Positions 2,225 to 24,347 of a DNA stretch of 64,000 nucleotides are shown in pieces. The DNA is from Planktomarina temperata RCA23. Lineage in GTDB: Bacteria; Pseudomonadota; Alphaproteobacteria; Rhodobacterales; Rhodobacteraceae. A program made the translations under genes and the position numbers. Each line of letters opens with the position of its first letter. Within the stretch, counting starts at the first letter, position 1. The DNA lies in contig NZ_CP003984.1 in the NCBI RefSeq assembly GCF_000738435.1, positions 2,852,001 through 2,916,000 of the forward strand, written 5' to 3'. Under the pieces are notes generated by a model. The model saw only the letters and a program-made list of their open reading frames with translations. It had not been told where the DNA came from and did no database searches.

Positions 2225-2263
2225 GCAGGTTAAGCACCGCATATGTCATGATCAGGAGCTATC

Positions 2264-3901: not shown

Positions 3902-3925
3902 CGGGTTTTCAATCGGAGAGAATAC

Positions 3926-5404: not shown

Positions 5405-5417
5405 TCCGATGTCGCGT

Positions 5418-6071: not shown

Positions 6072-6079
6072 TCATATGT

Positions 6080-7546
6080 TTAGTTGAGCAACACTCTGGG
6101 AAGCCAAAGCGCGATCTCTGGAAACAGGATCACTAGTGTCAGACCAAACAGTTGCAATATCACAAATGGGATGATGCCGCGATAGATCTGTTGGATCTTT
6201 ACTTCCGGCGGCGCAACCGCCTTGAGGTAAAAGAGCGCAAAACCAAAGGGCGGCGTCAAGAACGAGGTTTGCAGGTTGATGGCAATCAGGATTGCGAACC
6301 AATACACGACATCAAATCGCGAGACATGATCGCCAAAATCCAATTGTGCGATAATGGGTGCGAAGACGGGCAGCACGATCAGCGTGATCTCGATCCAGTC
6401 AAAGAAGAACCCCAACACAAAGACCAAACCAAGCAGTAGGAACAACAAACCCCATGGGCCAAGACCCATCGCCTCAACAGTACTGATCACCAGATCATCA
6501 CCTCCAAGCGCGCGGAAGATGTAGCTAAAGAAGGTCGCGCCGACGAACAGGCCGAAGATCATCGCATTGGTTTGTGCCGTACTGTCAACCACGCCGGACA
6601 CCGTGCGTTCGAACTGCACCAGCTTTCTCCACAAAGATGTAGCAATAACGGTGGCAGATTGCGTGCTGGCATCTGGCCCCTTAAGTGTGAAGTCCTTAAC
6701 ACCCATCGAGGGCAGGATCACCAGATTGAAGAACCCTAGTAAGATCGCGCCTAAGGCCCCAACGCCAGCCGCCTCTGTCGGGGTTGCAACACCCCCTAGG
6801 ATCGAGCCAAGCACCATGCCGATCAGGATGACAGGTGGGACAAAGCTGCGCAGGATCATGACCGCTATGCCACCACGCGTTTGCGGGCCTAGAGCCTCAG
6901 ATATTGGCGGTGCCAAAGACGGATTTATCCAACAGCGAATGACGATATAGCCCATATAAAGCGTCGCCAGAATAAGGCCGGGGAAGACCGCCGCCACAAA
7001 CAAGTTGCCCACTGAACGTGACAGCAAGTCCGCCATGATCACCAACATGATGGACGGCGGGATTAGAATGCCCAACGTCCCGGAGGCTGCAATTGTGCCG
7101 GTTGCAAGGGCGTGATCATATTTGCGTTCGACCATGATCGGCAGGGCCAGCAGGCTCATCATGATGACAGAAGCCCCAATGATGCCGGTGGTAGCAGCCA
7201 GAATGGTTCCCATGATGGTCACAGAGAGTGCAAGACCGCCCGGAACACGCCGCATCAGAATTTGAAGGCAGTTCAAAAGGTCGCGCGCAACTCCCGATTT
7301 CTCCAGCATCGTGCCCATGAACACAAACATCGGTATCGCTGTCAGGATAAGGTTTTCCATGACACCGCCGAAAATACGCGACGGCAGTGTGGAGAACTGA
7401 ATGAAGTTAAGTTCATCTGCGACAATACCAATCAGGCCAAAGCCCAGACCAACGCCTCCCAGAACCCAGGCTACCGGAAAGCCGCTGAACAGCAGGAACG
7501 CAAGAGCAACAAACATCAACAGCGGGAGGAGTTCGATAATGCCCAT
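6080..7546 (-). CDS. TRAP transporter large permease (DctM-type)
   Basis: A 488-residue polytopic membrane protein, longer than the usual roughly 430-residue DctM. The extra length is mostly a hydrophilic insert around residues 270-310. DctM forms the ion-coupled translocation channel of tripartite ATP-independent periplasmic transporters. Its start overlaps the dctQ stop by one base (TGATG), so translation is coupled. With dctQ and dctP it makes a complete importer, probably bringing in the organic acid handled by the adjacent catabolic operon. Confidence 0.92.
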   Translation of the reverse strand: MGIIELLPLLMFVALAFLLFSGFPVAWVLGGVGLGFGLIGIVADELNFIQFSTLPSRIFGGVMENLILTAIPMFVFMGTMLEKSGVARDLLNCLQILMRRVPGGLALSVTIMGTILAATTGIIGASVIMMSLLALPIMVERKYDHALATGTIAASGTLGILIPPSIMLVIMADLLSRSVGNLFVAAVFPGLILATLYMGYIVIRCWINPSLAPPISEALGPQTRGGIAVMILRSFVPPVILIGMVLGSILGGVATPTEAAGVGALGAILLGFFNLVILPSMGVKDFTLKGPDASTQSATVIATSLWRKLVQFERTVSGVVDSTAQTNAMIFGLFVGATFFSYIFRALGGDDLVISTVEAMGLGPWGLLFLLLGLVFVLGFFFDWIEITLIVLPVFAPIIAQLDFGDHVSRFDVVYWFAILIAINLQTSFLTPPFGFALFYLKAVAPPEVKIQQIYRGIIPFVILQLFGLTLVILFPEIALWLPRVLLN

Positions 7547-8109
7547 CAGTGGCCACCCCCGATTGTCGTTGCTTTCATGTCATCAGGAAGCCTTCCGGCC
7601 AGTCCTGCGATTGACTTAATGAGTTGGGATATCCCAGCCAGTCCGATTAGAACGAACAGGATAATCAACCCACTTTTCAGGATCCACAGGTCTGTCAAAC
7701 CGGTTTGAGATTTTGAAATCTCACCAGACGTGAAAGACCGAACGACATAGGGCCAGGACAACCAGGCCCCCAGAAAGGAATAGGGGATCAATGCAAGCAG
7801 GATGCCCGCCACTTCGATCATGTACTTGGTACGGTCCGACAGATTCTCTCGGATCAAATCAATGCGCACGTGGGATTGTTTTGGATAGGCATAGCCCACG
7901 ACCAAAACGATCAGAAAGCTATGCAGCCAGTACTCCGATTCCTGCAACATTGTTGAGGTCAATCCAAACACCTTGGGTACGCCCAGATAACGTGTAGTCA
8001 CGTCATAGGTGACAACGAGTACAAGAAGCAGCGCGCACCAAGCGCCCATCTTGGCCATAACCCAGAGAAACGCGTCGATTGCGCGGCTGACCGTCAAAGC
8101 GCTTTCCAT
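7546..8109 (-). CDS. TRAP transporter small permease (DctQ-type)
   Basis: A 187-residue protein with four predicted membrane helices and typical DctQ features (VTYDVTTRYLG after helix 1, a basic stretch SHVRIDLIRENL). DctQ pairs with DctM in the inner membrane. It is the middle gene of dctP-dctQ-dctM and is separated from dctP by 85 nt containing a strong hairpin (8149-8174). It ends in a one-base overlap with dctM. Confidence 0.9.
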   Translation of the reverse strand: MESALTVSRAIDAFLWVMAKMGAWCALLLVLVVTYDVTTRYLGVPKVFGLTSTMLQESEYWLHSFLIVLVVGYAYPKQSHVRIDLIRENLSDRTKYMIEVAGILLALIPYSFLGAWLSWPYVVRSFTSGEISKSQTGLTDLWILKSGLIILFVLIGLAGISQLIKSIAGLAGRLPDDMKATTIGGGH

Positions 8110-8148
8110 TGGATACCCCTTCCTTAGTTTTTCGAGTTGAAAATGAGT

Positions 8149-8174
8149 AAACCCGGCTGACTGTCAGCCGGGTT
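8149..8174 (-). terminator. Intercistronic hairpin between dctP and dctQ
   Basis: A near-perfect inverted repeat, AACCCGGCTGAC / GTCAGCCGGGTT, gives an 10-11 bp GC-rich stem with a tiny loop. It lies 20 nt after the dctP stop. The bases after it (TTTACTCATTTT) are only moderately U-rich. Such a structure would partly terminate or protect the upstream RNA, giving more periplasmic binding protein than permease. Confidence 0.7.
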
Positions 8175-8194
8175 CTTTGATTAATATCAGCCCA

Positions 8195-9235
8195 TCAATC
8201 GAGGTAGGCCAGATCTTTCCAGACTTTGTAGTCAGCACGGAATGCCTGAAGGTTCTTCCACACCCGGTCAAAATCGGGATTTTCCGCAGCCATCCCAACT
8301 GCAATCCCGTCCCATTCAGCCTCAAGCGTGTCGAGGAATTCATCTGGCCAACGGTGGGTCGTCACACCTTCAGCACGCATTTCAAGTAGCGCCTTGCCTT
8401 GAATGGCTTCACCCTCTGCTAGCTGCGTTGCTACAGTCGCGCGGCATGCCGTCGTGATGATCGCACGTTGCTGATCCGTCATGCCGTCCCAAACGGCCTT
8501 ATTCACAAGAAGTTCCTGAATGGTCGACTGTTGGTGCCAACCGGGAAAATAGTTGTGTTTGGCCAGATTATAAAATCCAAGGTTCTGGTCGATTGCAGGC
8601 ATCGAGAATTCGGTTGCATCGATGGTGCCACGCTCCAACGCCGGATAGATGTCGCCACCGGCTAGAAGCTGGGTGTCGACACCCATTTTCTGCATCACCA
8701 AGGCACCAAGGCCGTAAAAGCGCATTTTCAACCCTGCCAGGTCCTCTGCTGAATTAATTTCTTCTTTAAACCAGCCGGAGGTTTCCGGCGAGACGATGCC
8801 GCAAACTTGTCCGTGGATGCCTACGGGATGGTAAAGTTCGTTCATAAGCTTTTCACCGTCCCCATTCCACATCCATGCCAGATATTCACCTGGGCCTGGA
8901 CCAAAAGGTACGGCAGCAAACAAGTTCAAGGCCGAGTTTTTAGACCCCCAATAACCCGAGGTTGACCAACCTGCATCCACCGCTCCAGTGGATACATTGT
9001 CATAAATTTCTAATGGTGGAATCAGAGCGTTCGGATCATAGAATTTAACCTCAATATCGCCACCAGAGATCAAATTTACAGTTTCTGAAAATCGTACACC
9101 GGCTGTACCGAGTTGAGTTAGTGAACCAGCGAATGTCGATGGCATATTAATTTTGATCTTTTCGGCGTATGCCGTTGTGGCCACGACGCAAGCAAGTATA
9201 GCAGCACTGGTAATTACTCTGGACGTTCTTTTCAT
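8195..9235 (-). CDS. TRAP transporter periplasmic solute-binding protein (DctP family, TakP-like)
   Basis: A 346-residue protein with a clear signal peptide (MKRTSRVITSAAILACVVAT, cleavage near AYA-EK). The start is placed at 9235 because GGGAGG lies just upstream; the longer reading frame adds 25 residues with no such site. The ligand-binding core includes MRFYGLGALVMQKMG and GGDIYPALERGTIDATEFS, which closely resemble alpha-keto-acid binding proteins of the TakP subgroup. The Arg in MRFYG is the usual carboxylate anchor. It probably delivers a carboxylate to DctQM. Confidence 0.92.
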   Translation of the reverse strand: MKRTSRVITSAAILACVVATTAYAEKIKINMPSTFAGSLTQLGTAGVRFSETVNLISGGDIEVKFYDPNALIPPLEIYDNVSTGAVDAGWSTSGYWGSKNSALNLFAAVPFGPGPGEYLAWMWNGDGEKLMNELYHPVGIHGQVCGIVSPETSGWFKEEINSAEDLAGLKMRFYGLGALVMQKMGVDTQLLAGGDIYPALERGTIDATEFSMPAIDQNLGFYNLAKHNYFPGWHQQSTIQELLVNKAVWDGMTDQQRAIITTACRATVATQLAEGEAIQGKALLEMRAEGVTTHRWPDEFLDTLEAEWDGIAVGMAAENPDFDRVWKNLQAFRADYKVWKDLAYLD

Positions 9236-9443
9236 CTTATCCTCCCATAGGGTTTTTTTTGAAGCACAAACTATGGGTAACGCTTGGATAGCCGCTTTCA
9301 GGAGTCTCAAATTCCGAATGGGGGTATCACCGTTAGGGATGGCAATATGAAAAAGTGAGCAAAAACCTGTTAATAAGGCAAATTTTGGCCGGTCAGTGAT
9401 GCCCCAATGTAGCGGTTGACACCGATTGGAAAGAAAAGTTGAA

Positions 9444-11028: not shown

Positions 11029-12132
11029 TTAAAACGCGGCAACGGGGTCGCCAAAGAGTGCCTCATCTGGCGTGATGCCCAGGCCTGGGCCCTTCGGAAG
11101 ATCAATATGACCGCCTACAACCTCCAGGCCACTTTCACCGCAATAGTGGCCGTCGATATAGGGCGCTGCCAACCAAACACCTTCCAACAAGTCTGGGCGC
11201 ACTGTTGCCCCTAAATGGGTGCAAGCCGCTGCAAGGATATCGCCACCCCATGCGTCGTCACATGAGTGCGGCAAATTCCGCGCCGCGCAAATGTCGCGCA
11301 CCGTCGTCATCGGCTGCAACCCGCCCAGCCTGGTAAGTTTCAGCCCAAAGCCATCAACCAACCCTGAGCCAGCAGCGCTAATCACTGTGTTCACATCATA
11401 AGAACTCTCGTCGATGTAAAGTGGGTGGTGAAGCAATGGCCGCAGTTGGCGCAGTTCGTCATTTGTGCTGCATGGTTGCTCCAGAACGAACGGAATATCG
11501 GCGCATGAACGGCTGATGTACATGGCATCGCGGGTGCTCCAGCCTCTGTTGGCATCAATGGCAAGACGCATGCCACTGCCTTTGATGGCCTCCCAAACCT
11601 TGCGGATCACCTCAACGTCGACTTCTGGTGAATGTGCGCCGACCTTCAATTGCAGTCGCGGGTAGCCTTCTGCGCGTTTTGCAGCTGCTATCCGCCCAGC
11701 GTTGTCTGGCGTTTCGATCCCGATCGCGTAATACGAAGGAACGCGGTCCATCGCGGCCCCACCCAACAGATCTGCAACACGAAGTCCAAGGGATTTGCCC
11801 AACGCGTCAAAGACGGCAATGTCGATCGCAGCTTTCGCATAGTTATGGCCATGGAGCAGATTATCCATCTGTCGGTGCACGCTAAGCGGCAAGACCTCCG
11901 TACCGATCAATCCCGGAGCCATCTCCAATAGGGCTGCGCGCGCCCCTTTGGCGTGGGCTTCGGCATAAACCGGCCCCAGCGGGCATGTTTCGCCCCAGCC
12001 GACAACGCCAGTGTCTGTGACCAGTTTCACCAGCGTCGTGTCCAGCGAGAATATCTCACCATATGACATTGTGTATGGGCCATTTTTGACCGGTAAATCA
12101 TATTGGTAGATATTCAGGTGAGCGATTTTCAC
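11029..12132 (-). CDS. hpbD: Mandelate racemase/enolase-superfamily enzyme, HpbD-like (hydroxyproline betaine 2-epimerase)
   Basis: A 367-residue enolase-superfamily protein of the MLE subgroup. Acid/base lysines are K163 (LQLKVG) and K265 (GLKLTRLGG). Metal ligands fit D193 (AIDANRG), E218 (VLEQP) and D241/E242. D292 (CDDAWGG) and W320 (EGVWLA) match the positions I recall for HpbD, which epimerises trans-4-hydroxy-L-proline betaine and proline betaine. The start is GTG and overlaps the upstream dehydrogenase stop (GTGA), so the two are translated together. An alternative is a cis-3-hydroxyproline dehydratase-like relative. No Rieske demethylase of the usual betaine pathway is visible in the window. 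Confidence 0.8.
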
Positions 12133-13223
12133 GAAGATACCTCCGGCGGGATCAGGACCAGTTTTCCCGTATGCTTCTTTACCAGGAAATCCTCTTGCGC
12201 CTGCGCGATGTCACGCAACGGGTACGTTTTGGCAACAACAGGGCGAATTTCTCCGGCTTCGATATAGCTGATCAGATTGGCAAACACTTCATCTTCCTGA
12301 AAGGTGCAGCCCATGAGGGTGAGATCCTTGAGGTACAGCGTCCGCACGTCAATCTGCGCGATTGGCCCAGCAATGGCACCAGCGGTTACGTACCGCCCAC
12401 CGCGCCGCAAGACATCAAGAAAAGAGGGCCATTGTTCCCCGGCAACAAGATCAATCACCACATCAATCGAGCCCGTGCCCAATTCCGCCACCAGATCGAC
12501 GTTCCGGTCGAGAACCTGATCTGCGCCCAAAGCTCTTACCTCTTCTGCCTTGGCCACTGACGACAGCGCGATGACCTCAGCTCCACGTCGCTTTGCGAGT
12601 TGCACAGCGGCTGAGCCAACTCCTCCTGACGCGCCTGAGATCAAGACCCGTTCCGCACCAACGCCTGCGCGATGCAACATGTTCTCTGCTGTTGAATAAG
12701 CGCAAGGGATCGAAGCAAGCTCTGCGTCGGTCCAATCGCAGTCGACACGGTGGGTTTCGCGGGCCGGTGCTACAACAAATTGAGCGAAGCCTCCGTCACA
12801 TTCACTGCCAATCGTCCAACATTCATAGGGGCGAAAATCAACGTAAGTGCGCAACATATTACGGACCAAGACCCGTTCTCCGATACGCGCGTCGCTGACC
12901 CCGTCACCAACAGCCACGATATAACCGCAGACATCGGCACCTTGGATGCGCGGGAAGGTCAGCGGCGTGCCTGACCAGCTAGCGTCATCATCGTCCACAC
13001 TGTCAAAGCCAGTTGCGCCACCGGTATCAGTGCCCTCGTTAACCGCCTTCGAATACCAACCAATACGAGTATTGATATCGGTGTTGTTGATACCTGCCGC
13101 AGCAATCTGGATCAGTAACTCACCAGGCTTTGGCTGCGGTATGAGCACATCAGTTCGGTAATCCAATTTTTCCAGGCCGCCGTGACCAGTCAATAAAACC
13201 GCATGCATTGTATCTGGTCGCAT
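12129..13223 (-). CDS. MDR-superfamily alcohol dehydrogenase / quinone oxidoreductase-like protein
   Basis: About 364 residues of the medium-chain dehydrogenase family, with an N-terminal GroES-like catalytic domain and a C-terminal nucleotide-binding motif [20 protein letters not shown]. The start at 13223 (MRPDTMHAV) is chosen because GGAAGA lies at the right distance; the open frame extends to 13268. It is the first gene of a two-gene operon with the HpbD-like epimerase, with a 4-base overlap. It probably reduces or oxidises an intermediate of the same pathway with NAD(P)H; the substrate is unknown. Confidence 0.85.
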
Positions 13224-13487
13224 CAAATGTCTTCCAATCATAAAGCGAGGTAAGCTGGTTTGGTCCAACCATCATAGCAAGGGTGTAGTATTGCCATCAT
13301 AAGTTACCGACGTCTCTGCAGAACTATTCGTCGCTTTCGCACCGAAGGCTTACATCCCGATCCTCTAATCCTAAAGCTTCTCGACAGAAGCGGCCATTGG
13401 AGCATTTGCAGCGAATTCACACTTTGTCCACATAGCAGCCGTTAGTGCTTGGATAGGGCAATGTCTGCTTCTTCAGTTAATGGCAGT

Positions 13488-13991: not shown

Positions 13992-14879
13992 TCACATGGT
14001 CCCGACCAGCTCACTGTTCAACCAGGCGCTAAAGGCGCGCGATGCTGGCGTTGACGCGTGTTCAGGCGGATCTGACAGAAAATAGGCCTCTGTCAGTGGT
14101 GGACAATGATCAAACGGCTGGATGACCCGACCATCGGCGAGGAGATCCTCCGCGAGTGTGTCGTGGACCATGGTTATTCCAGCACCGTGAAGCGCTGCCT
14201 GAATTGCAATCACGAATGTTGAGACCAGGGTCACAGAACCATCCCTGTCGAATGGCTGGTTTTGCGATTTAAACCAAGTGCCCCAAGATCCGGTCATCCC
14301 CGCGCAGTCGAGCAGTACAGCGGTTTCAAGGTCAATTTCACCTTCCTGATAGCTTGGCGCACAAACTGGAAAGAACCGCTCTTTGGTGAGTTGCTGAGCG
14401 GCTGGAGACATGTCCTCTGGACGACCGAAACGGATTTCAACTTGGGCGTTTGCAGCCTGCCTTTCGGGATCCCAGATCGGGGTAACGATGTTAAGCACGA
14501 TCCATGGATGCGCTGCATAAAGGCGTTTCAGGCGTGGAGCGAGCCAATGCACTGAGAACGCCATATTGCAATGAAGCGTCAGAGTGCGGCCACGGTCGCC
14601 TCCTGTAAAGGCGCGCGTGCCGCTCGCCAGCATTTGGAACGCTTCTCGCACTACAGGCAAATAGTTGGCCCCTGCTTCGGTGAGTTCAATCGCTCGGGTT
14701 TTGCGCAGAAACAGGTCACGGCCAAGAAAGGATTCAAGGCTGCGCACATGCTGGCTTACCGCGGATTGGGTCAGGTTGAGTTCACTAGCCGCCAAGGTAA
14801 ACGACAGATGACGCGCGCTGGTCTCAAACGCGCGCAGCCAGTTCAAGGGTGGTAATCCGTCCAACTGCATTCCACACAT
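13992..14879 (-). CDS. LysR-family regulator (GcvA-like)
   Basis: A 295-residue LysR protein. The helix-turn-helix region reads LPPLNWLRAFETSARHLSFT then NLTQSAVSQHVRSLE, which is characteristic of the GcvA/AmpR branch. The effector domain follows. The start may be 14879 or 14870 (MQLDGL). It is divergent from the aldolase-oxygenase operon that begins at 14984, and the 104-nt gap holds two near-identical ATGCATTAG boxes. It is therefore very likely the regulator of that operon. Confidence 0.9.
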   Translation of the reverse strand: MCGMQLDGLPPLNWLRAFETSARHLSFTLAASELNLTQSAVSQHVRSLESFLGRDLFLRKTRAIELTEAGANYLPVVREAFQMLASGTRAFTGGDRGRTLTLHCNMAFSVHWLAPRLKRLYAAHPWIVLNIVTPIWDPERQAANAQVEIRFGRPEDMSPAAQQLTKERFFPVCAPSYQEGEIDLETAVLLDCAGMTGSWGTWFKSQNQPFDRDGSVTLVSTFVIAIQAALHGAGITMVHDTLAEDLLADGRVIQPFDHCPPLTEAYFLSDPPEHASTPASRAFSAWLNSELVGTM

Positions 14880-14882
14880 AAC

Positions 14883-14910
14883 CTATGCATTAGTTGAACT
14901 GATGCATTAG
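14883..14910. promoter_or_regulatory. Probable LysR operator: paired ATGCATTAG boxes
   Basis: ATGCATTAG occurs at 14885-14893 and 14902-14910, 17 nt apart. The second box is CTGATGCATTAG, one base from the perfect palindrome CTAATGCATTAG. Two helical-phase-spaced boxes between a LysR gene and the operon it faces are the expected layout of an autoregulated divergent promoter. Confidence 0.6.
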
Positions 14911-14983
14911 CGTAGAATCTATCGTTTGTCAGCCTCTAAAGTGCTTTGGTATAGGTCATTCGGCAGATTGAGGGAGGACCGAG

Positions 14984-15739
14984 ATGCTGGATGTGCAAAA
15001 AACCGCAAACCTGGCCTATTGGGAGGAGCGGGTTGATATGGCAGCCGCGTTCCGTTGGGCTGCACGCCTGAACATGCATGAGGGTGTGGCCAACCACTTT
15101 AGCCTTGCGGTGAATGAGGATGGCACACGGTTCTTGATGAACCCCAATCAAAAGCACTTCGCGCGCGTCAAAGCCTCTGATCTTCTTCTGCTAGATGCCA
15201 ACGACCCAACAACAATGGATACGCCCAATGCGCCAGACCCGACCGCCTGGGGGCTGCATGGTTCGATCCATAAACTGTGCTCACATGCGCGCTGTGTCAT
15301 GCATGTGCATTCGGTCCATGCCACAGTTCTCGCATGTCTCGCAGATAGCACCCTGCCGCCCATTGATCAAAACAGCGCGATCTTTTTCAACCGCACTATG
15401 ACCGATCACGACTTTGCTGGCCTCGCTTTTGAAGAAGAAGGTCTGCGCTGCGCCGACATGCTCGGCGACCCCAACAAGAAGGTCATGATCATGGGCAACC
15501 ATGGCGTACTCGTGATCGGTCATACGGTCGCAGATACGTTTAACCGCCTCTACTATTTTGAGCGCGCGGCCGAGACCTATATCCGTGCTCTCCAAACAGG
15601 AAAGCCCTTGCGGATCTTATCTGACGAGATTGCTGAAAAGACGGCGCAAGAACTCGAAGACTATCCAGATCAATCCGAGTGCCACCTGGCCGAACTCAAA
15701 GCCATCCTCGACGAGGAAGGCTCAAACTACGGGAGCTGA
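14984..15739 (+). CDS. Class II aldolase/adducin-fold protein lacking the catalytic Glu
   Basis: A 251-residue member of the class II aldolase/adducin family. The Zn-binding histidines are H107 and H109 (HVHSVH) and H173 (GNHGVLVIG). By alignment with L-fuculose-1-phosphate aldolase, where Glu73 lies 19 residues before the first His in SSEWRFH, the equivalent here is A88 (PTAWGLH). The usual catalytic acid is therefore absent, and simple aldol cleavage is doubtful. A GGGAGGACCGAG site precedes the ATG. It is the first gene of a four-gene operon and its stop is 2 nt from the next start. It could be a decarboxylase, epimerase or lyase on a non-phosphorylated substrate. Confidence 0.85.
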   Translation: MLDVQKTANLAYWEERVDMAAAFRWAARLNMHEGVANHFSLAVNEDGTRFLMNPNQKHFARVKASDLLLLDANDPTTMDTPNAPDPTAWGLHGSIHKLCSHARCVMHVHSVHATVLACLADSTLPPIDQNSAIFFNRTMTDHDFAGLAFEEEGLRCADMLGDPNKKVMIMGNHGVLVIGHTVADTFNRLYYFERAAETYIRALQTGKPLRILSDEIAEKTAQELEDYPDQSECHLAELKAILDEEGSNYGS

Positions 15740-15741
15740 CC

Positions 15742-16770
15742 ATGCCTAACTACGTCCCTACAAATGCCGCCTCTTCGGGCGTCAAACTTGACAAGAAGAC
15801 ACTAAAGGCGATTGCCGCCCGCACGGACCGACCTGGCCTGATTTGGCTCGGCCAATGGGTCATCTGTCTGGCTTTGACCGGTGCGCTTGTCATGATGTCG
15901 CTCGGCACTTTTTGGGTGTGGCCTGCCATGCTGCTGCATGGCGTTTGTCTTACGGTACCAGCCTATGCGGCGAGTCACGAGACCGCCCATGGCACAGCGT
16001 TCCGGACGCGTTGGCTAAATGAAGCCGTGCTTTGGGTGACTTCGCTGCTTTACATGGAGGAGCCCCTGCACCGGCGTTTCACACACACCAATCACCACAC
16101 GCATACGTGGCACATCGGCAAGGATAGTCAAATGCCGTTTGACACCCCTATGGGCTTTGGCGCCTGGGTGGCAGAGGCTACAGGCTTTGCATTGCTACGC
16201 TTTCATTTGTCCGTATTCGGGCTTTTGGCGTTGGGGCGATATACCGACACCCTGCGCCTGGTCGCGCCGGAGCAGGAATTACCCAAGATGACCCGCAACG
16301 CGCGGATCATGATCGCAATTTATGCAGCGGTGTTGCTGGCGCCAATCTTTGGAGTCTGGTGGCCCTTCTGGTTATATGTTCTGCCGCGTATCCTGGGCGC
16401 ACCCGTCATGCTGCTCTTCACACTGATCCAGCATGTCGAACTGCAGGAAAACTCGCCATCAATCCTGGAAAGCACGCGGTCCTTCCGGACAAGCTGGCTT
16501 GGACGGTTTCTGTACATGAACATGAACAACCACGTTGAACATCACCTCTATCCACAGGTGCCGTTTCACGCCCTGCCGCGGTTAGCCGAGGCAGTACAGG
16601 ATCAACTACCAGAGCCGGACCCTGGCTTCTTCCGAACCAATTTCGAGGTGCTGCTGGTGGTGTTTCGCCGGTCATTGGGGCGGCCCACCAAGGCGCCAAC
16701 CATCCGGCAAGCGCCCCATATGATCACAGAAGGCGGCCCGGTGGTCCGCGTGGCCCAAAGGACCATGTAA
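15742..16770 (+). CDS. MocD-like membrane fatty-acid-desaturase-family oxygenase
   Basis: A 342-residue integral membrane di-iron protein. Histidine boxes are H79ETAH83, H115TNHH119 and H264VEHH268, with hydrophobic segments around residues 36-75 and 190-230. The start at 15742 is preferred over an upstream frame that overlaps the aldolase gene; GGGAGC precedes it. Desaturase-fold enzymes use O2 and electrons from a ferredoxin. The partner Rieske ferredoxin gene is two genes downstream, the MocD/MocE pairing known from rhizopine catabolism, where MocD is an oxygenase that demethylates. A hydroxylase or demethylase for a small catabolic substrate is more likely than a lipid desaturase. Confidence 0.83.
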   Translation: MPNYVPTNAASSGVKLDKKTLKAIAARTDRPGLIWLGQWVICLALTGALVMMSLGTFWVWPAMLLHGVCLTVPAYAASHETAHGTAFRTRWLNEAVLWVTSLLYMEEPLHRRFTHTNHHTHTWHIGKDSQMPFDTPMGFGAWVAEATGFALLRFHLSVFGLLALGRYTDTLRLVAPEQELPKMTRNARIMIAIYAAVLLAPIFGVWWPFWLYVLPRILGAPVMLLFTLIQHVELQENSPSILESTRSFRTSWLGRFLYMNMNNHVEHHLYPQVPFHALPRLAEAVQDQLPEPDPGFFRTNFEVLLVVFRRSLGRPTKAPTIRQAPHMITEGGPVVRVAQRTM

Positions 16771-16771
16771 A

Positions 16772-17620
16772 ATGAAACGCATCTATGATTTCGGCCGCAA
16801 CCCCGCACAGCGGAACTATACTGTGACAGACCTGAAGGCCCTTAAAGGGTCGGACCGCAAACTTTCGATGTCGAACCCCGCAGATCGCGACCAGATCACA
16901 GCGTGCGTCGATGCTGGGATCGATCTGTTCGTAGTTGGCACGGATCAGATGGAAGACGTGCGCGAGCTTGCCCCGACACACTTCGCCGGAGCGGGTTCCA
17001 CTTGGGCGCAGTTTGGCTCTGATGACGAGATTGTGGCTCATGCCTTTGAGGCTATGCGTCGCGGTGCGGACATGTATTACACGCTGCGCTCGTTCGATGT
17101 GATGGAATGCATGGCGCGCGAAGGGATTCCCGTGCAAAGCCACATCGGCCTAATACCGACATTCAGCCATCATTACGGCGGTCTGCGCGCCTTTGGGCGG
17201 ACCTCTGAGGAGGCGATGCAGGTCTGGGAGAGGTTGAAGCGCATGGAAGATGTAGGCGTCTTTGCCGTCGAAGTGGAATGCCTGGCGGAAGAGGTGCTCC
17301 TTGCCATTAACGACAAGACGTCCGTGGTGACGTTCTCTCTTGGCTCCGGCATGGGCGGTGACGCGATCTTTTCTTTTGTGGCCGATGTCTGCGGCGAGGC
17401 AAGCGAAGAAGAAAAACCCCCGAAGCATGCCCATGCCTTTGGCGATGTAGGCCGTCTGCACAAACAGATTCACGAAGAACGTGTGGCAGCCCTTGGCGAG
17501 TTTCACCGCGAGGTAGTTGATGGGAACTTTCCCTATGCACCCACCAATATCGGGATGAAACCAGATGAGAAGGACAAGTTCCTCGACGCCCTCGAGGGCT
17601 GGACGCCGACCCACCAATGA
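16772..17620 (+). CDS. Divergent PanB-like (ketopantoate hydroxymethyltransferase-fold) protein
   Basis: A 282-residue PEP-mutase/PanB-type TIM barrel. Segments matching PanB are GIPVQSHIGLIP (residues 118-129), YGGLRAFGRTSEEA (135-148) and VFAVEVEC (163-170), where E169 matches the catalytic Glu181 of E. coli PanB. The metal-binding regions do not match: GDS is replaced by G56-T-D, and the KIEGG segment by YTLRS (103-107). It begins 1 nt after the oxygenase stop. True ketopantoate synthesis is unlikely; a related C-C bond formation or cleavage in the catabolic operon is an inference. Confidence 0.72.
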   Translation: MKRIYDFGRNPAQRNYTVTDLKALKGSDRKLSMSNPADRDQITACVDAGIDLFVVGTDQMEDVRELAPTHFAGAGSTWAQFGSDDEIVAHAFEAMRRGADMYYTLRSFDVMECMAREGIPVQSHIGLIPTFSHHYGGLRAFGRTSEEAMQVWERLKRMEDVGVFAVEVECLAEEVLLAINDKTSVVTFSLGSGMGGDAIFSFVADVCGEASEEEKPPKHAHAFGDVGRLHKQIHEERVAALGEFHREVVDGNFPYAPTNIGMKPDEKDKFLDALEGWTPTHQ

Positions 17621-17650
17621 TCCCCAGTCAGAACACCCAGGAGCCAAAAA

Positions 17651-17959
17651 ATGAGCCAATGGATAGACGCCTGCGCGCCCGAAGACATTGACGAAGAAGA
17701 CCTCATCGCATGGGACCACAATGGCCAAAAGATCGCGATTTACAACACAGAAAAAGGATTCTTTGCTACCGATCTGATGTGCACCCATGAGGAACAGAGC
17801 CTAGAGGATGGGCTGGTTATCGACTGCGTGATCGAATGCCCCCTTCATGGCGGTCGGTTCGACATATGTAGCGGCAAAGCTTTGTCCTCGCCCGTAACTG
17901 TCGACCTCAAGACCTATCCGGTCGAACTGCGCGACGGCCGCATCTGGGTTCAGGTCTAG
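17651..17959 (+). CDS. MocE-family Rieske [2Fe-2S] ferredoxin
   Basis: A 102-residue protein with one Rieske motif, C44-T-H46 and C63-P-L-H66, and no membrane anchor. It matches small Rieske ferredoxins that carry electrons to oxygenases. It is the last gene of the operon, 30 nt after the PanB-like gene. It is the likely electron donor for the MocD-like oxygenase. No ferredoxin reductase (MocF equivalent) is encoded nearby, so a general reductase must serve it. Confidence 0.92.
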   Translation: MSQWIDACAPEDIDEEDLIAWDHNGQKIAIYNTEKGFFATDLMCTHEEQSLEDGLVIDCVIECPLHGGRFDICSGKALSSPVTVDLKTYPVELRDGRIWVQV

Positions 17960-17980
17960 CCCCACATGGCATCAAACCAG

Positions 17981-18257
17981 TAAAGGATGCTGTCAGACGA
18001 ATGAGAACTCGCATCGAATTAATGGCGCAGCCTGAACCTATGCGCTCAATAATTGACGTCACTCGGTGAGATCAGCGGCTCGGTTCAGCTTGAAATTAGA
18101 GCATGAATAGAGATAACCACCTCAAACAAAACCCCCTCCCAATGAATCCACCACCCCAACACTAAAGGCCCGAGGTGCGAGGCGCGGGGCCTTGGGATAG
18201 GGGGCCTTGTGTGAGCCTGGCGCGTTTCATCTGTTTGGATTAGGCTAAGTAACCCCC
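17981..18257. repeat. Dispersed intergenic repeat, copy C
   Basis: It begins 22 nt after the ferredoxin stop with TAAAGGATGCTGTCAGACGA, matching copy A, and tracks copy A to the segment ending CTGTTTGGATTAGGC. Together A and C flank the whole 11.0-18.0 kb gene block. The two outer copies are in the same orientation. From 18258 to 18493 there is AT-rich sequence with no gene visible. Confidence 0.85.
18164..18193. terminator. Hairpin core of repeat copy C, downstream of the ferredoxin gene
   Basis: AAAGGCCC and GGGGCCTT pair around the loop sequence GAGGTGCGAGGCGC, slightly changed from copies A and B. Its position 205 nt after the last gene of the operon makes it the only visible candidate terminator for that operon. 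Confidence 0.5.
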
Positions 18258-18493
18258 CAAACAAGATGGCCGACACCTCACAGGAATGCTTAGCTCGGGG
18301 AACGGTCAAGCTATGATTGGTACGGGAGTATTCACAGCAGATTAAGCTTTATAATTTGCTTTTCCCTCGATCAGAGATTCGACGGACATCAGGGAATGTT
18401 AAAAAGTGGCAATGAACGCGGCAATTATTCTGTGATGCAAATAGGCCTTAAAACGCAAAAAACGCTAACCTATTGAGCTAGCGTCAATTACTT

Positions 18494-18570
<77 letters not shown>

Positions 18571-18696
18571 CCAAGTTCCTGATAGCTAGACCCTCGCCAC
18601 GCAAACCACAAGGGGTAAATCGTAGATTTTTACCTCTCAAATCAATTTTCCGCAAAGAGCTGCGCAGAGCGTTTCGAGCATGTCGCAGACTCAAGC

Positions 18697-19527
18697 TCAA
18701 ACAGTGTGGACCTGAAAATTTGGACCCTCCAGTATGTCGCGAATCATAGTGGAGACGCGCGGTGATGTCTTTCGGACCAAGCCGCTGGCTTTTAGCCCCG
18801 CCCTAAGATCTGTGCCAAGTCCAAGGCGGCGCCAGAGGCGCGCTTTATATAGGATTTCATTTGTATCTATATGGGTCGACATCATGCGGCTCGGGAGCAG
18901 ATCCGTATGCTTCCAGTCCCGAATTGAAATGATCTCCGACACCAAAGGCCCAGCCAAGGGTTTTGAATAGGACTGAATAAATACGTTATGTTCAAACTTC
19001 GCCGCCTGCCCGCCACCTTTGAACAATATTCGATTGCCCAAAAGCGGTTCGCGCCCTCGGATGATGTAGCGCAAAAAGGTTGAATCCTCACGCGAAAACA
19101 CGCGACAAAATGCAATCATATAGTGATCCGGCCAGGTCTTCGTGTTGAAATATATTAAATAATCTCCGCGAAACCGTTCTAAAAGGCGCGACGACTGGCG
19201 AAAATAAGCATCCAGTGGAAACTCCAAGGTTCGCTGCGCAGGCCCCTGTTTGAGCAAAGACACCTTGCGATATTTCTGAGAAAATTCGATGTGCGGCAAC
19301 TCAAAATCTGCGGCTTGCACATTGAAATAATCACAAATGGCGATCAAATTATGGGTATTGGGATAGGACTTATTGTTCACATAGCGCCCGAATTGCTGAC
19401 GGTTTATCCCCAATTCGCGGGCAACAAAGGATACAGATTTCCGCAGACCGCAGAGCCATCTCAGATTCTCGCCAAATTCAGTCATAAAATTCGCCCAAAT
19501 TAAAAAATCATGATCGGATAAACGCAT
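18697..19527 (-). CDS. XRE-type helix-turn-helix regulator with unknown C-terminal domain
   Basis: A 276-residue protein, or 262 residues from the internal ATG at 19485 (MTEFGENLRWL). The N-terminal 60 residues form an XRE-like helix-turn-helix (SFVARELGINRQQFGRYVNN, then SYPNTHNLIAICDYF). The remaining 190 residues have no recognised domain but are rich in aromatic and basic residues, consistent with a ligand-sensing fold. It lies about 130 nt beyond the initiator tRNA on the same strand. Its target is unknown; it is not adjacent to any operon it obviously controls. Confidence 0.75.
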   Translation of the reverse strand: MRLSDHDFLIWANFMTEFGENLRWLCGLRKSVSFVARELGINRQQFGRYVNNKSYPNTHNLIAICDYFNVQAADFELPHIEFSQKYRKVSLLKQGPAQRTLEFPLDAYFRQSSRLLERFRGDYLIYFNTKTWPDHYMIAFCRVFSREDSTFLRYIIRGREPLLGNRILFKGGGQAAKFEHNVFIQSYSKPLAGPLVSEIISIRDWKHTDLLPSRMMSTHIDTNEILYKARLWRRLGLGTDLRAGLKASGLVRKTSPRVSTMIRDILEGPNFQVHTV

Positions 19528-20168: not shown

Positions 20169-21122
20169 ATGTCAGATCATGGTTATGAAGCCGGGCGGCT
20201 GAACTTGCCTTTTGTTGGAATTTCCACCTTTGGCAAACGCCCCTATGTCGCAGATTGGGATGCGATTGAGGCCGATGTGGCAATTTTGGGTGCTCCCTTC
20301 GATTTTGGCACCCAATGGCGCCCCGGTGCGCGCTTCGGTCCGCGCGCAGTCCGCGAAGCCTCAACTCTATTTTCTTTCGGTCATGCCGGTGCCTATGACC
20401 ATGAGGATGACGCGACATACCTCGCAAGCGATGTGCGTATCGTTGATTTGGGTGATGCCGATATCATCCATACGAAAACGGATGAAAGCCATGCCAATAT
20501 TGAATTTGGTGTGCGCAAGATTTTGGCCGCCGGCGCGCTGCCAGTGGTGATCGGCGGGGATCATTCCATCAATATCCCCTGCATCAACGCCTTTTCCGAG
20601 CAAGAGCCCGTGCATGTGGTTCAGATTGACGCCCATTTGGATTTTGTGGACAGCCGTCATGGGGTGACTGCGGGCCATGGCAATCCCATGCGCCGCGCAA
20701 TTGAAAAACCATGGGTCTGTGGCATGACACAGCTGGGCATTCGCAACGTCAGCTCCACCGCGAAAGAAGGCTATGATGACGCAAGGGCCCGCGGGTCTGA
20801 CATCCTGTCGGTGCGGCAAGTGCGAGCATTAGGGCTTGAGGCCGTGCTGGCGCGAATCCCCGCCGGAGCGCGCTATTATGTCACCATCGATATCGACGCC
20901 TTCTGCCCCTCCATCGCCCCGGGCACCGGCACGCCAAGCCATGGCGGGTTTCTCTATTACGACGTGTTGGAAATTTTACAGGGTCTGGCCCAGCGCGGGC
21001 ATGTCGCCGGGATTGATCTGGTTGAAGTGGCACCGGCCTATGACCCAACGGACAGCACACAAATTCTGGCAGCGCAATTGCTCTTGAATTTCATCGGCTT
21101 TATTTTTCACCAAAGGCGATGA
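20169..21122 (+). CDS. speB: Agmatinase/guanidinobutyrase-family ureohydrolase
   Basis: A 317-residue Mn-dependent ureohydrolase. Metal ligands are H132 (GGDHS), D154, H156 and D158 (DAHLD), and D241 and D243 (TIDIDAF). The PGTGTPSHGG stretch is typical of the agmatinase branch. These enzymes cleave urea from agmatine, guanidinobutyrate or guanidinopropionate in the cytoplasm. The gene stands alone with about 640 nt upstream and converges on the TIM-barrel gene. The symbol is by family; the substrate could equally be 4-guanidinobutyrate, especially since an AruI-like decarboxylase is encoded at 55.1-56.7 kb. Confidence 0.85.
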   Translation: MSDHGYEAGRLNLPFVGISTFGKRPYVADWDAIEADVAILGAPFDFGTQWRPGARFGPRAVREASTLFSFGHAGAYDHEDDATYLASDVRIVDLGDADIIHTKTDESHANIEFGVRKILAAGALPVVIGGDHSINIPCINAFSEQEPVHVVQIDAHLDFVDSRHGVTAGHGNPMRRAIEKPWVCGMTQLGIRNVSSTAKEGYDDARARGSDILSVRQVRALGLEAVLARIPAGARYYVTIDIDAFCPSIAPGTGTPSHGGFLYYDVLEILQGLAQRGHVAGIDLVEVAPAYDPTDSTQILAAQLLLNFIGFIFHQRR

Positions 21123-21129
21123 GCGGCTT

Positions 21130-21972
21130 TTAACGATCGCCGCCGAGCTCTTGCCAAATCTCTGCGACCCAAGCTTTAATCTGCAAAGCCTCTTCCCAGC
21201 GGTTGGACATCTCGCGCCCCTGAGCATCGGTCATCGCATATTCTGGCGGGCCAAGCTCGCATAGGAAGATGCAATCACCCTCCGCGCGCGCACGCCAATC
21301 TTGCATCCCTTCGCGCCACCAGCCTTTGAACAGTTCAACCCATTTTTGGTGCTGCGGAAAATCCAATTGCAGTTGAATTTGCTGACGACTGGCCACCCGG
21401 CCTTGAAAACTGTCTGAGCGCTGCAAAATGCGGCTGATCAATCCCATGTCACGTTCCGAAAGAGGAAACCAAAATTCGCGGTCCACCACATAGTGGCTCA
21501 AGTCCGCACATATCCGCATCTCCGGGATGGCATCAAGCAGGCAAAGTGTGGAATAAAGATCATTGGTGATGCAATTGCGGTGGGTTTCAAATTGTACGGG
21601 AACGCCAATCTCATCGGCCATATCCATCCATTGCCGGATCACGGGGATCATCCCATCAACGCTAAGTGGCATCACCTGACCAATCACATCCACGAAAGGG
21701 CTGCCAAAATCCTTTGCCATCACCAGCGTTTCGCGCAGGCTTTCAACACTCTTGGGAAAGGCAACGATCAAAGGCGTTAGGCCATAACGCTCCATATGCG
21801 GCCTTACCTCATGGGCTTGCGCCACATCACCGGCCCCCAGATCAATCGCCATCCCGTCGTAACCGGCCTCGGCCACCATTTCGCAGACCTGCTCATAGGG
21901 CAGTTTAATCCCTGTTTGATCGTGCGGCTGCATGGCCCAAAGGCTGGTGAAGGTTTTGAGAGTCTGTGTCAT
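21130..21972 (-). CDS. Sugar phosphate isomerase/epimerase-type TIM-barrel protein
   Basis: About 280 residues of the xylose isomerase-like TIM-barrel (AP endonuclease 2) superfamily. Probable metal-site residues are in VQFETHRN (a Glu), RICADLSHYVV (Asp/His) and the C-terminal FLCELGPPEY (Glu). The start at 21972 (MTQTLKTFTSLW) fits better than the open frame start at 22011. It converges with the ureohydrolase gene with 7 nt between the stops. It is often annotated as a hypothetical isomerase; the reaction is unknown. Confidence 0.75.
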   Translation of the reverse strand: MTQTLKTFTSLWAMQPHDQTGIKLPYEQVCEMVAEAGYDGMAIDLGAGDVAQAHEVRPHMERYGLTPLIVAFPKSVESLRETLVMAKDFGSPFVDVIGQVMPLSVDGMIPVIRQWMDMADEIGVPVQFETHRNCITNDLYSTLCLLDAIPEMRICADLSHYVVDREFWFPLSERDMGLISRILQRSDSFQGRVASRQQIQLQLDFPQHQKWVELFKGWWREGMQDWRARAEGDCIFLCELGPPEYAMTDAQGREMSNRWEEALQIKAWVAEIWQELGGDR

Positions 21973-22310
21973 CTGGTCAGCCTGCAATGAGTTCCTAGGT
22001 GAGGCAAGCAATTTTCACGCATCCGGCCGCAGCCCGGCCCGAACTGACAGGCAATGGTAAAAACGCCATTTCAACACGAAATGAGGGCAGCGCCTGCCTG
22101 GGCGGGCGCATATGTTTGGTGGTGACATCACTGCAAAATTTGAGCAATAGCCATAGATAACAGAATGCCCAGATGGTGACAGCCCGGTGTTGCCACCGGG
22201 CAAAGTGTTTGGCTTGGCGGTTGGGGTATGCAGAGGCCTTTAGTAAGAAAACTCACAGTCACGCCCGAAAAACGGCGCCAAGACGAAGCGAATCGCGCTA
22301 GGGTGCTGAA

Positions 22311-23399
22311 ATGATGTTTTCCTTGCCTGATCCAGATGTGCTCTATTACGCACTTGTCGCCCGCAGTGACGCCTATGAGGGACGCGCCTATGTCGGCGTG
22401 ACCTCAACCGGCATTTTTTGCCGCCTCAACTGCCCGGCCCCCAATCCCAAACCGGAAAACTGCACGTTTTTCGAGAACCCCGGCGATTGTATCGCTGCGG
22501 GATTTAGGCCTTGTAAACGCTGCCACCCGCTGGCGCCTGTGGCGCGGCTGGATCCGCTTGTGGATCAGATGCTGAAAGCCTTTGACGCAGATCCGATGCG
22601 TCGCTGGAGCGAGACCTGCGTTGCAGCGATGGGCTTTGACCCCTCTACCGTACGGCGCTCCTTCAAGCGCCATTTTGGCATGACCTTTTTGGAAATGGCC
22701 CGTCACCGCCGATTGCGCCACTCTGCCGAGGTCTTGGCCAAGGGCGATAAGGTCGTCGAGGCCCAGCTGAGCGCAGGATTTAAATCGCCCAGCGCATTTC
22801 GCGCCGCTTTCGCAAAGCTCATGGGACGAGCCCCAGGGGAATTTGCCGAAAATGCCCTGTTGCGGGCCAGTTGGATCGACACACCCATTGGCGCGATGGT
22901 GACCATCTGTGACGCCACCCAAGTGCATTTGTTGGAATTTCCCGAACGCAAGGGCCTGGCCCGCGAGGTGCAGCAGCTGTTTCAATATTCCAAAGGGCAA
23001 TTGGGTTTTGGTCGCTTTGCCTTGACCGATCGGGTGCAAGCGCAGCTGACAGAATTTTTTGTGGGGCGGCGGCCGAAATTCGATCTGCCTCTGGCCTTGC
23101 ACGGCACAGATTTTTCCAAAACTGTCTGGCGCGCTTTGCAAGACATCCCAGCCGGACAAACCCGATCCTATGCGCAATTGGCGCAATCTATAGCGCGACC
23201 CACGGCCATGCGTGCCGTTGCTCGCGCCAATGGGGCCAATCAAATCGCAATTGTATTGCCCTGCCACCGCGTCATTGGCGCTGACGGCACTCTGACAGGC
23301 TATGCCGGCGGGCTGTGGCGCAAGCAGAAGTTAATAGAGCTGGAACGCGCCTATGCGGCGGCGAGCTCAAGCCTCAACGCGCGTCTCGCGTCCAGCTGA
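22311..23399 (+). CDS. ada: Bifunctional Ada: methylphosphotriester sensor, AraC-type regulator and O6-methylguanine-DNA methyltransferase
   Basis: A 362-residue, full-length Ada. The N-terminal zinc/methyl-acceptor domain has C37, C41, C68 and C71 (FCRLNCP, FRPCKRC). An AraC-type DNA-binding region follows (about 85-180). The C-terminal methyltransferase domain has the suicide cysteine C318 in PCHRVIGADG. It directly repairs O6-methylguanine and activates the adaptive response. Its 3' end overlaps the end of the convergent desaturase gene by 33 nt. The start may be either of the two adjacent ATG codons. Confidence 0.95.
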   Translation: MMFSLPDPDVLYYALVARSDAYEGRAYVGVTSTGIFCRLNCPAPNPKPENCTFFENPGDCIAAGFRPCKRCHPLAPVARLDPLVDQMLKAFDADPMRRWSETCVAAMGFDPSTVRRSFKRHFGMTFLEMARHRRLRHSAEVLAKGDKVVEAQLSAGFKSPSAFRAAFAKLMGRAPGEFAENALLRASWIDTPIGAMVTICDATQVHLLEFPERKGLAREVQQLFQYSKGQLGFGRFALTDRVQAQLTEFFVGRRPKFDLPLALHGTDFSKTVWRALQDIPAGQTRSYAQLAQSIARPTAMRAVARANGANQIAIVLPCHRVIGADGTLTGYAGGLWRKQKLIELERAYAAASSSLNARLASS

Positions 23400-24347
23400 G
23401 GTCGGCACAATCCAAACCTCATCCATGGGCCATTGGCTTTCATCCTTTTGCGCAAACCGCTTGATGACTTCAATCTGAAATTCGATCCAGCCCATCCGAT
23501 GCACAGGCCCGGCCTGCGCCTCGATCTTGGCATTGAGCTGCCGCAACTTCCAAAAGGGCACAGAGGGAAATACATGATGCGCCGTGTGATAGGGCATCTG
23601 CCAGCACAGCCAGCGCATCAGCGCATTGGTCCGCGTGGAGCGTGTGTTTTTTAGTATATCGTCCTCATGGCTGAGGCCCAAATGTTCAATTGTATTTTGC
23701 AACTGATGCACAGGTTTGGTCAAAAGCATCGGCAAAAGCCAAAAGCTCATCGCCGCCCATGAATTCAAAGCAACAGAGCCCAAGAGGATCACCGCATAGA
23801 GCGCCACATGAACCCGGCTCTCAAGAACGATCTTGGCCTCTTCTTCGGCGCGGATAAACGGCTCAATAATCACCCCCCGCGCGCGGCGGATCACACCAAA
23901 GATGCGATTGCGCCAATACGTAACGCCGGACAGCCACAAGAGATATGTCACAAGCGTATAGGGCGCGCGCACCAATTCGCCGTCTTTCTCCCAATCTTGC
24001 GTGTGGGTATGATGTGCGAAATGCATGACCTGATCGTAATCTCGTGGAAAGATCATCACAAAGCCAATCAACCGGCCAAAGAGCACATTTATCCGGCGGG
24101 TCGCAAAAACGGTCGCATGGCTCAGCTCATGCTGGGCGGCATAGAGGAAATTGAGCAAAACACCCAAGACAAAGCCTGTCAGCCAGACCCATGCAGTGCC
24201 CAAAGCCAAGCTGTGCAGGTAACCCGCGCAGACGATTGCCCCCAGATGGCTGGCCATTTGCGCAGCCCCCCAAAGGTTTGAGCGTGTATTAAGCGCCTTG
24301 AGTTCGGCTGGGGTGACCAGTTTACGGCGTGAAAACGACGCGTCCAT
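23367..24347 (-). CDS. Membrane fatty acid desaturase-family protein
   Basis: A 326-residue integral membrane di-iron protein with histidine boxes HELSH, HFAHH and HTAHH and about four hydrophobic segments. It is a separate paralogue of the MocD-like protein at 15.7 kb, sharing the fold but few other residues. GATGAGGT lies before the ATG. The acyl-CoA synthetase gene just upstream on the same strand supports a role on lipids or fatty acids, but the bond oxidised is unknown. Its last 33 nt overlap ada. Confidence 0.85.
   Translation of the reverse strand: MDASFSRRKLVTPAELKALNTRSNLWGAAQMASHLGAIVCAGYLHSLALGTAWVWLTGFVLGVLLNFLYAAQHELSHATVFATRRINVLFGRLIGFVMIFPRDYDQVMHFAHHTHTQDWEKDGELVRAPYTLVTYLLWLSGVTYWRNRIFGVIRRARGVIIEPFIRAEEEAKIVLESRVHVALYAVILLGSVALNSWAAMSFWLLPMLLTKPVHQLQNTIEHLGLSHEDDILKNTRSTRTNALMRWLCWQMPYHTAHHVFPSVPFWKLRQLNAKIEAQAGPVHRMGWIEFQIEVIKRFAQKDESQWPMDEVWIVPTSAGRETRVEA

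Follow-up and report, generated by a model that had tools for sequence, protein, structure and literature searches.

A 64,000-nt window of the Planktomarina temperata RCA23 genome (NZ_CP003984.1; all coordinates are window positions) contains an operon encoding a class-II-aldolase-fold protein (ALD), a MocD-like membrane oxygenase (MOCD), a protein with the fold of the ketopantoate hydroxymethyltransferase PanB (the PanB-like protein, encoded by PANB), and a MocE-type Rieske ferredoxin (MOCE). The observation is real and conserved. The partners of this one altered PanB family are several unrelated oxygenases and, in certain operons, the formyl-tetrahydrofolate (formyl-THF) deformylase PurU; this combination is new as far as the searches reach, and it leads to a specific, testable proposal for the role of the family. 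Oxidative demethylation releases toxic formaldehyde, and the operon may plausibly, if still tentatively, be read as an O2-dependent demethylation module in which the PanB-fold protein hands a one-carbon (C1) unit to THF. The sequences themselves establish the genes and their order, the motifs, the conservation, the changes of partner, and the linkage to PurU in relatives; each chemical step, the folate use of the PanB-like protein, where the reducing power comes from, and what the substrate is are all inferred.

Results

Organization of the Operon

Open reading frame (ORF) analysis places ALD, MOCD, PANB, and MOCE on the + strand, separated by 2, 1, and 30 nt, with a LysR-family regulator gene diverging on the − strand (Table 1). 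The same genes, order, near-abutting gaps, and divergent regulator, and the likeness to MocD and MocE, had been reported in a first-pass annotation of this DNA, and the ORF, Pfam, and NCBIfam analyses bear these out. The Pfam scores were 142.8 bits for Aldolase_II (ALD), 111.5 for FA_desaturase (MOCD), 91.7 for Pantoate_transf (PanB-like protein), and 66.2 for Rieske (MOCE). The start of MOCD was set at the ATG at 15742, in agreement with the starts of its relatives; the mechanical ORF opens upstream, at 15679. No MocF reductase gene was found within the operon, and a homologue of Rhizobium etli MocF (40%) is located elsewhere in the 3.29-Mb genome.

The PanB-Like Protein Has Lost Defining Residues of PanB

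The PanB-like protein passes the gathering score of PF02548 (91.7 vs. 28.7 bits) over profile positions 118–257 of 259, which is the C-terminal half only, and scores below both NCBIfam PanB cut-offs (77.1 vs. 272 and 57.5 vs. 207.55 bits). When the 45 PanB-like sequences are aligned with the PanB proteins of Escherichia coli and of the genome itself, all 45 retain H136 and E181, and none has D84, K112, or E114, which are present in both reference proteins. An Asp is aligned with D45 in 12 of the 45 sequences, in a gapped region, and one loop is ~20 residues shorter in the family than in PanB. We take D84, K112, and E114 to bind the metal and keto acid, and E181 to be the base. Because D84, K112, and E114 are lost, the protein is not, by its defining residues, a ketopantoate hydroxymethyltransferase; a separate PanB that keeps all three is encoded in the same genome (L027). 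The fold model of the PanB-like protein has a mean predicted local distance difference test score (pLDDT) of 56, and no active-site claims were drawn from it. When this low-confidence model was searched against the PDB, ranks 1–28 among the matches listed were PanB chains, followed by 2,3-dimethylmalate lyase and other members of the superfamily.

Conservation of the Operon

Scanning genome contigs for relatives of the PanB-like protein turned up 25 loci, 67–90% identical in the best segment. Most are from Rhodobacteraceae; others are from metagenome-assembled genomes labeled Gammaproteobacteria, Chloroflexi, Flavobacteriales, and Acidimicrobiaceae. The first-pass annotation had named a neighborhood conserved nowhere else as grounds for refutation; the search found the operon in other genomes, so its proposal is not refuted on that ground. 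Matches at E ≤ 1e-60 occur in 17 of 295 genomes of the window's family, and the family profile is matched at 1e-40 in 18 of 398 genomes of its phylum; a scan of viral contigs returned no relative. With plasmid records and further genome stretches included, 68 loci were compared, and 63 were kept after five near copies (≥97%) had been dropped. The Pfam check covered representatives of each gene type, and the remaining genes were assigned by purpose-built profiles. Loci whose PanB-like protein is at least 65% identical to that of the window were defined as window-type; L023 and L024 were classed by script as <50% identical, although the contig scan gives 67% and 76%. Alignment A2 comprises 21 of the 26 sequences (window plus 25 loci), excluding L008, with its two in-frame stops, and the partial L021–L024.

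MOCD, PANB, and MOCE share one strand in all 10 window-type loci that have MOCD, and seven of these also have ALD. A same-strand oxygenase gene lies within 5 kb of PANB in 19/25 window-type loci, in 4/4 loci of the 50–65% identity class, and in 26/34 of the remaining class, or 22/34 once the weak PhyH matches at 4.5–5 kb in L098, L101, L102, and L103, which should not be counted, are left out. When only loci flanked by 3 kb or more to either side are taken, the raw oxygenase counts for the three identity classes are 16/20, 3/3, and 23/30; the loci compared are related and not independent. In a set of eight genomes, a PF00487 or PF04116 match occurs no more than 5 kb away from 12 of the 13 PanB-like places, where ~0.4 would be expected (101 matches in 33.9 Mb), the lone exception being G210.

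The PanB-like gene with two in-frame stops (L008:8001-8846) lies behind PhyH and HD-domain genes and is either a broken gene or an assembly error; a tandem pair of PanB-like genes (L060:9808-11502) occurs in an operon with ALD, Rieske oxygenase, M24, and FA_hydroxylase genes; and matches to the PanB-like protein also occur in 103 Enterococcus and six Klebsiella plasmid records.

PanB-Like Genes in Rhizobial moc Operons

In the passages available from the moc literature, mocDEF are described as part of, and required for, the catabolism of rhizopine (3-O-methyl-scyllo-inosamine); these passages make no mention of PanB or ketopantoate and do not state how formaldehyde is disposed of after a MocD-type demethylation. 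On plasmid pA of R. etli CIAT 652 (L077), mocD, mocEa, and mocFa are followed by a gene annotated as a "probable ketopantoate hydroxymethyltransferase", and Pararhizobium qamdonense has the same mocD-mocE-mocF-PanB-like order. The PanB-like partner, which the first-pass annotation had considered unprecedented for MocD and MocE, thus has a precedent in the R. etli annotation and recurs in rhizobial-group genomes: the link to PanB is wider than first thought and is already annotated, without comment, in rhizobia. Searches of the literature (titles and abstract starts, with subscription papers mostly outside their scope) found no paper on the MocD/PanB-like gene pair.

The recurrence was counted in 121 genomes of one family, taken as rhizobial because one member matches the R. 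etli protein at 97%. At E ≤ 1e-30, the PanB-like protein occurs in 30 of these genomes and a MocD homologue in 36. After 16 of the 50 MocD places had been excluded for identities of ≤35%, 24 of the 34 closer MocD genes have a PanB-like gene within 5 kb, and 10 have none near. Of the 41 PanB-like places, 24 have one of the closer MocD genes on the same strand no more than 5 kb off: 22/24 at ≥60% identity, 2/8 at 45–60%, and 0/9 below.

These counts bear on whether MOCD could be a lipid desaturase acting alone, with its neighbors assembled by chance. MOCD does belong to the FA_desaturase superfamily, but the best desaturase equivalog in NCBIfam scores only 25.4 bits against a cut-off of 500, and neither the unbroken MOCD-PANB-MOCE association in the window-type loci nor the 24 of 34 in the rhizobial group suits chance neighbors; we consider a lone desaturase very improbable.

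The PanB-Like Protein Is Retained While Partner Oxygenases Change

Elsewhere, the partners of the PanB-like protein include FA_hydroxylase, a GbcA-like Rieske oxygenase, PhyH, and an HD-domain protein, and a single row (L064) can hold ALD, Rieske oxygenase, FA_hydroxylase, MOCD, PANB, and MOCE. A tree was built from 82 PanB-like rows by a quick method with Shimodaira–Hasegawa-like approximate likelihood ratio support only and with long branches flagged. The labels MocD, FA_hydroxylase, and PhyH require seven changes on this tree, with 18 rows lacking an oxygenase left uncounted; the MocD label alone requires six, four of them forced by starred branches. The 82 loci include 20 fetched as MocD neighbors, 15 fetched as non-neighbors, and L105, a near copy of L077 that was kept; proportions within them are not those of a random sample, because 20 were chosen beside MocD and 15 away from it.

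The exchange of partners argues against a noncatalytic role, for example as a binding or stabilizing oxygenase subunit or as a formaldehyde or folate sensor. The loss of three PanB residues throughout the family and the tight linkage to oxygenase genes would suit such a role, but several unrelated partners are hardly expected of a fitted subunit, and H136 and E181 are kept in all 45 sequences. We therefore regard a noncatalytic partner as improbable.

One-Carbon Genes near PANB

PurU is encoded on the same strand within 1.2 kb of PANB in five of the 82 loci, all of the rhizobial group, and directly adjoins it in three. In L117, L126, and L131 the genes run mocD, mocE, mocF, PANB, PurU on one strand; in L095 the order is MOCE, MOCF, PurU, FA_hydroxylase, PANB; and in L091 PurU lies 1.1 kb past PANB with one gene between. 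All five proteins score 316–335 bits against the TIGR00655 cut-off of 285.95. By chance, far fewer than 0.1 of the 82 loci should have PurU so near on the same strand (15 genes in ~55 Mb), the ten genomes behind this background density having been picked with the PurU result in mind. The first-pass annotation had guessed that a C1 unit might pass through the PanB-like protein, and that guess gains from the five PurU neighbors.

Other C1-related neighbors are scattered. A GcvT-type gene occurs in one of the 82 loci and dimethylglycine dehydrogenase (DMGDH) in two. In L051, where the PanB-like protein shares 84% identity with that of the window, MOCE is directly followed by a DmdA-like gene, which scores 355.1 bits against a cut-off of 410. 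A DMGDH-type protein with a GCV_T domain is encoded 4.6 kb from PANB in L062, and L065 has homologues of it on the opposite strand. MttB genes lie within 5 kb of PANB in L017, L018, and L050, and a BCCT gene follows MOCE in L011. DddP-like M24 genes are present in L006 (278 vs. 600 bits), L011, and L060, and in L006 and L011 they sit between PANB and MOCE.

A reading that we judge rather unlikely, and that these neighborhoods help to weigh, is that the PanB-like protein works without folate, as a lyase, hydrolase, or isomerase of the PanB/phosphoenolpyruvate-mutase/isocitrate-lyase superfamily acting on a carbon skeleton made by the oxygenase; the module would then hydroxylate and split a C–C or C–heteroatom bond. 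The appearance of 2,3-dimethylmalate lyase and its superfamily after the 28 PanB chains in the search with the low-confidence model is consistent with this, as is the disappearance of the PanB metal and keto-acid residues. PhnZ/TmpB-like HD-domain genes, with weak scores, take the place of ALD in L008, L055, L057, and L080, which suits a cleavage step, and six loci of one clade (L098–L103) lie amid sugar genes (those checked are PfkB in L099 and DeoC in L102). However, the PurU, DmdA-like, and DMGDH-GcvT neighbors point to folate, the range of unrelated oxygenases is more in keeping with a common small product than with a common skeleton, and the metal ligands that we take to be needed by the superfamily are missing.

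MOCD, MOCE, and ALD

MOCD carries three His boxes (HETAH at 79, HTNHH at 115, and HVEHH at 264), whose His positions are unchanged across nine relatives. It is 35% identical to R. etli MocD, an identity that is not decisive for rhizopine O-demethylation, and phmmer found no PDB relative at E ≤ 1. Hydroxylation or demethylation, proposed in the first-pass annotation, is supported as the probable chemistry. MOCE has CxH (44) and CxxH (63) motifs and scores under the MocE cut-off (MocE_fam; 115.7 vs. 136.15 bits). Separately, an Alisedimentitalea plasmid (L078:8899-11471) carries a 56% MOCD homologue with a ferredoxin gene and an M24 gene and no PanB-like gene nearby; this homologue adjoins a 5-guanidino-2-oxopentanoate decarboxylase gene. 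A second FA_desaturase-superfamily gene, matched by the MOCD profile, lies in the window at 23367-24347 (−), 5.4 kb from the operon.

ALD belongs to the PRK07490 family (412.1 bits vs. a cut-off of 260 in NCBIfam). All 13 ALD sequences have the metal-binding His triad (H92, H94, and H155 of E. coli FucA), and all 13 have Ala in place of the catalytic Glu73 of FucA. Because the catalytic Glu of class II aldolases is absent, a retro-aldol step is doubtful, and the C–C cleavage by a classical class II aldolase suggested earlier is weakened; ALD may have an oxidative or decarboxylating role.

Regulator and Genomic Surroundings

The nearest NCBIfam model for the LysR-family protein is GcvA, at 230.1 bits against a cut-off of 288, so it is not GcvA by that rule. 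The regulator gene is also divergent in most of the MOCD loci compared. An inverted repeat in the gap between it and ALD is a candidate regulator site (Table 1). The exact 5-base repeat ATTAR-N5-YTAAT occurs in 6 of 12 comparable intergenic regions (L003, L004, L006, L050, L058, and L064), with near forms in the gaps of the window and L049 and no exact repeat in those of L005, L011, L051, and L059. A promoter scan of 14700-18700 found no sigma-70-like sites, vs. 2.6 expected from shuffling.

Table 1. Positions of the operon genes, the candidate regulator site, and possible associates in the window
Feature	Position	Strand	Basis
ALD, class-II-aldolase fold, PRK07490 family	14984-15739	+	Pfam Aldolase_II, NCBIfam
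MOCD, MocD-like FA_desaturase-superfamily membrane di-iron oxygenase	15742-16770	+	Pfam, His boxes
PanB-like protein (PANB), PanB fold	16772-17620	+	Pfam Pantoate_transf, residue alignment
MOCE, MocE-type Rieske [2Fe-2S] ferredoxin	17651-17959	+	Pfam Rieske, motifs
LysR-family regulator	13992-14879	−	Pfam LysR helix-turn-helix and substrate domains
Inverted repeat, candidate regulator site	14885-14907		LysR-ALD gap; TGCAT-N11-ATGCA around ATTAG-N5-CTGAT
Enolase-superfamily gene, possible associate only	11029-12132	−	Near PDB 4e8g and 2pmq/4h2h (549 and 510 bits)
Zinc-type dehydrogenase gene, possible associate only	12129-13268	−	4-nt overlap with enolase-superfamily gene

At 11029-13268 (−) lie an enolase-superfamily gene and a zinc-type dehydrogenase gene. 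The PDB relatives of the former (4e8g and 2pmq/4h2h) are, we presume, the hydroxyproline-betaine epimerase HpbD. The dehydrogenase has a 64% homologue in the PanB-like locus L081 of Mesorhizobium amorphae, which also contains enolase-superfamily genes, ProX, and a homologue of hydroxyproline dehydratase/proline racemase. Together the two window genes hint at proline-betaine compounds. Neither has a match in L001–L027 (flanks ≤8 kb), and because the HpbD-like neighbor is unmatched in the flanks of other MOCD loci, a hydroxyproline-betaine substrate is not accepted as proven.

The window also contains Gfo/Idh-like, GMC oxidoreductase, and aldehyde dehydrogenase genes (+) with tripartite ATP-independent periplasmic (TRAP) transporter and LysR genes (−) at 884-9310, which, named from their translations only, would form a separate catabolic cluster. 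An agmatinase-family gene, above the TIGR01230 cut-off, adjoins a TIM-barrel gene at 20169-22011, and an 84% homologue of this agmatinase occurs in the MOCD locus L006, 7 kb off. Some recurring neighbors were set aside: an adenine-deaminase-like gene and its partner (the latter named by eye) near L058, L060, and L064, and histidine-degradation genes (named by eye) near L010, L014, and L016, both look like shared genome position and not function. A link to a homarine operon was considered and dropped: literature searches brought up no paper on the genes of such an operon, and nothing in this analysis ties the window to that compound.

Discussion

In the proposed scheme, MOCD, fed with electrons by MOCE and a reductase encoded elsewhere, would hydroxylate an O-, N-, or S-methyl group of a small substrate to give a hydroxymethyl product at the oxidation level of formaldehyde. 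The PanB-fold protein would take this C1 unit and join it to THF as 5,10-methylene-THF, which would keep free formaldehyde scarce. In some relatives, THF might be recycled by the PurU of the same operon, and ALD would work on the demethylated skeleton. Loss of a carbon-bound methyl group was also considered and found no support beyond the chemistry of PanB itself. The neighbors of the relatives weakly favor a betaine- or sulfonium-type methylated compound over a methylated inositol as the substrate in the window and its relatives; in rhizobia, the substrate would be a methylated inositol derivative.

Several points weigh against folate-linked demethylation. The use of folate by the PanB-like protein is itself deduced. 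PurU is near PANB in only the five loci described, FolD, MetF, GlyA, and FrmB were matched in none of the 82 (Fhs was not sought), no C1 gene of those searched for lies close to the PANB of the window, and the window's genome has no PurU above the cut-off (best score, 72.8 bits). An oxygenase is lacking nearby in six of 25 window-type loci, one of them being cut by a contig end and one having a short flank. The distant L098–L103 clade lacks a close oxygenase and possibly has another function. The FA_hydroxylase, PhyH, and HD-domain partners are not known as demethylases, and ALD has no clear place in a demethylation scheme.

A broader suggestion, advanced with less assurance than the scheme itself, is that the PanB fold gave rise to a separate folate-dependent hydroxymethyl (formaldehyde) transferase. 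Coupled with interchangeable, unrelated oxygenases, this one C1-capturing protein would take part in the removal of O-, N-, and perhaps also S-linked methyl groups in rhizobia, in marine Rhodobacteraceae, and in a number of further phyla. Should the PanB-like protein prove to be the C1 acceptor, then genes that currently carry the name of a vitamin-synthesis enzyme (vitamin B5) are wrongly labeled, a step is added to the rhizopine pathway, and the gene becomes a marker for the breakdown of methylated betaines, sulfonium compounds, or inositols by bacteria of the sea and the soil.

With PanB, the PanB-like protein shares the Pantoate_transf domain, H136 and E181, and, by the low-confidence model, the nearest fold; it differs in lacking D84, K112, and E114, in its shorter loop, and in scoring under both NCBIfam cut-offs. 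The top NCBIfam match of MOCD is GntB, an arginine hydroxylase of guanitoxin biosynthesis in the FA_desaturase superfamily, but MOCD scores 38.7 bits against the GntB cut-off of 380. The five solved structures most closely related to ALD include the class-II-aldolase-fold proteins NovR and TqaM, presumably iron- and O2-dependent, but at only 60–67 bits, and their pathways are unrelated.

Two operons offer comparisons for the module as a whole. The purU-mabO-folD operon of pAO1 is described, in the part of the source available, as a folate-linked demethylation operon in which the methyl C1 unit is passed to THF (PMC3891541). It has PurU in the operon, as do five relatives of the window protein, whereas the operon of the window lacks PurU; MABO belongs to the oxidases, not the oxygenases, and that part of the source mentions no PanB-like protein (PMC3891541). 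The R. etli moc operon combines a MocD-type oxygenase, a MocE ferredoxin, and a PanB-like protein on one strand, as the window does. It differs in having its own mocF, a LacI-type regulator, and an adjoining sugar epimerase, with no ALD or LysR, and its proteins are 35% (MOCD), 48% (MOCE), and 35% (PANB) identical to those of the window.

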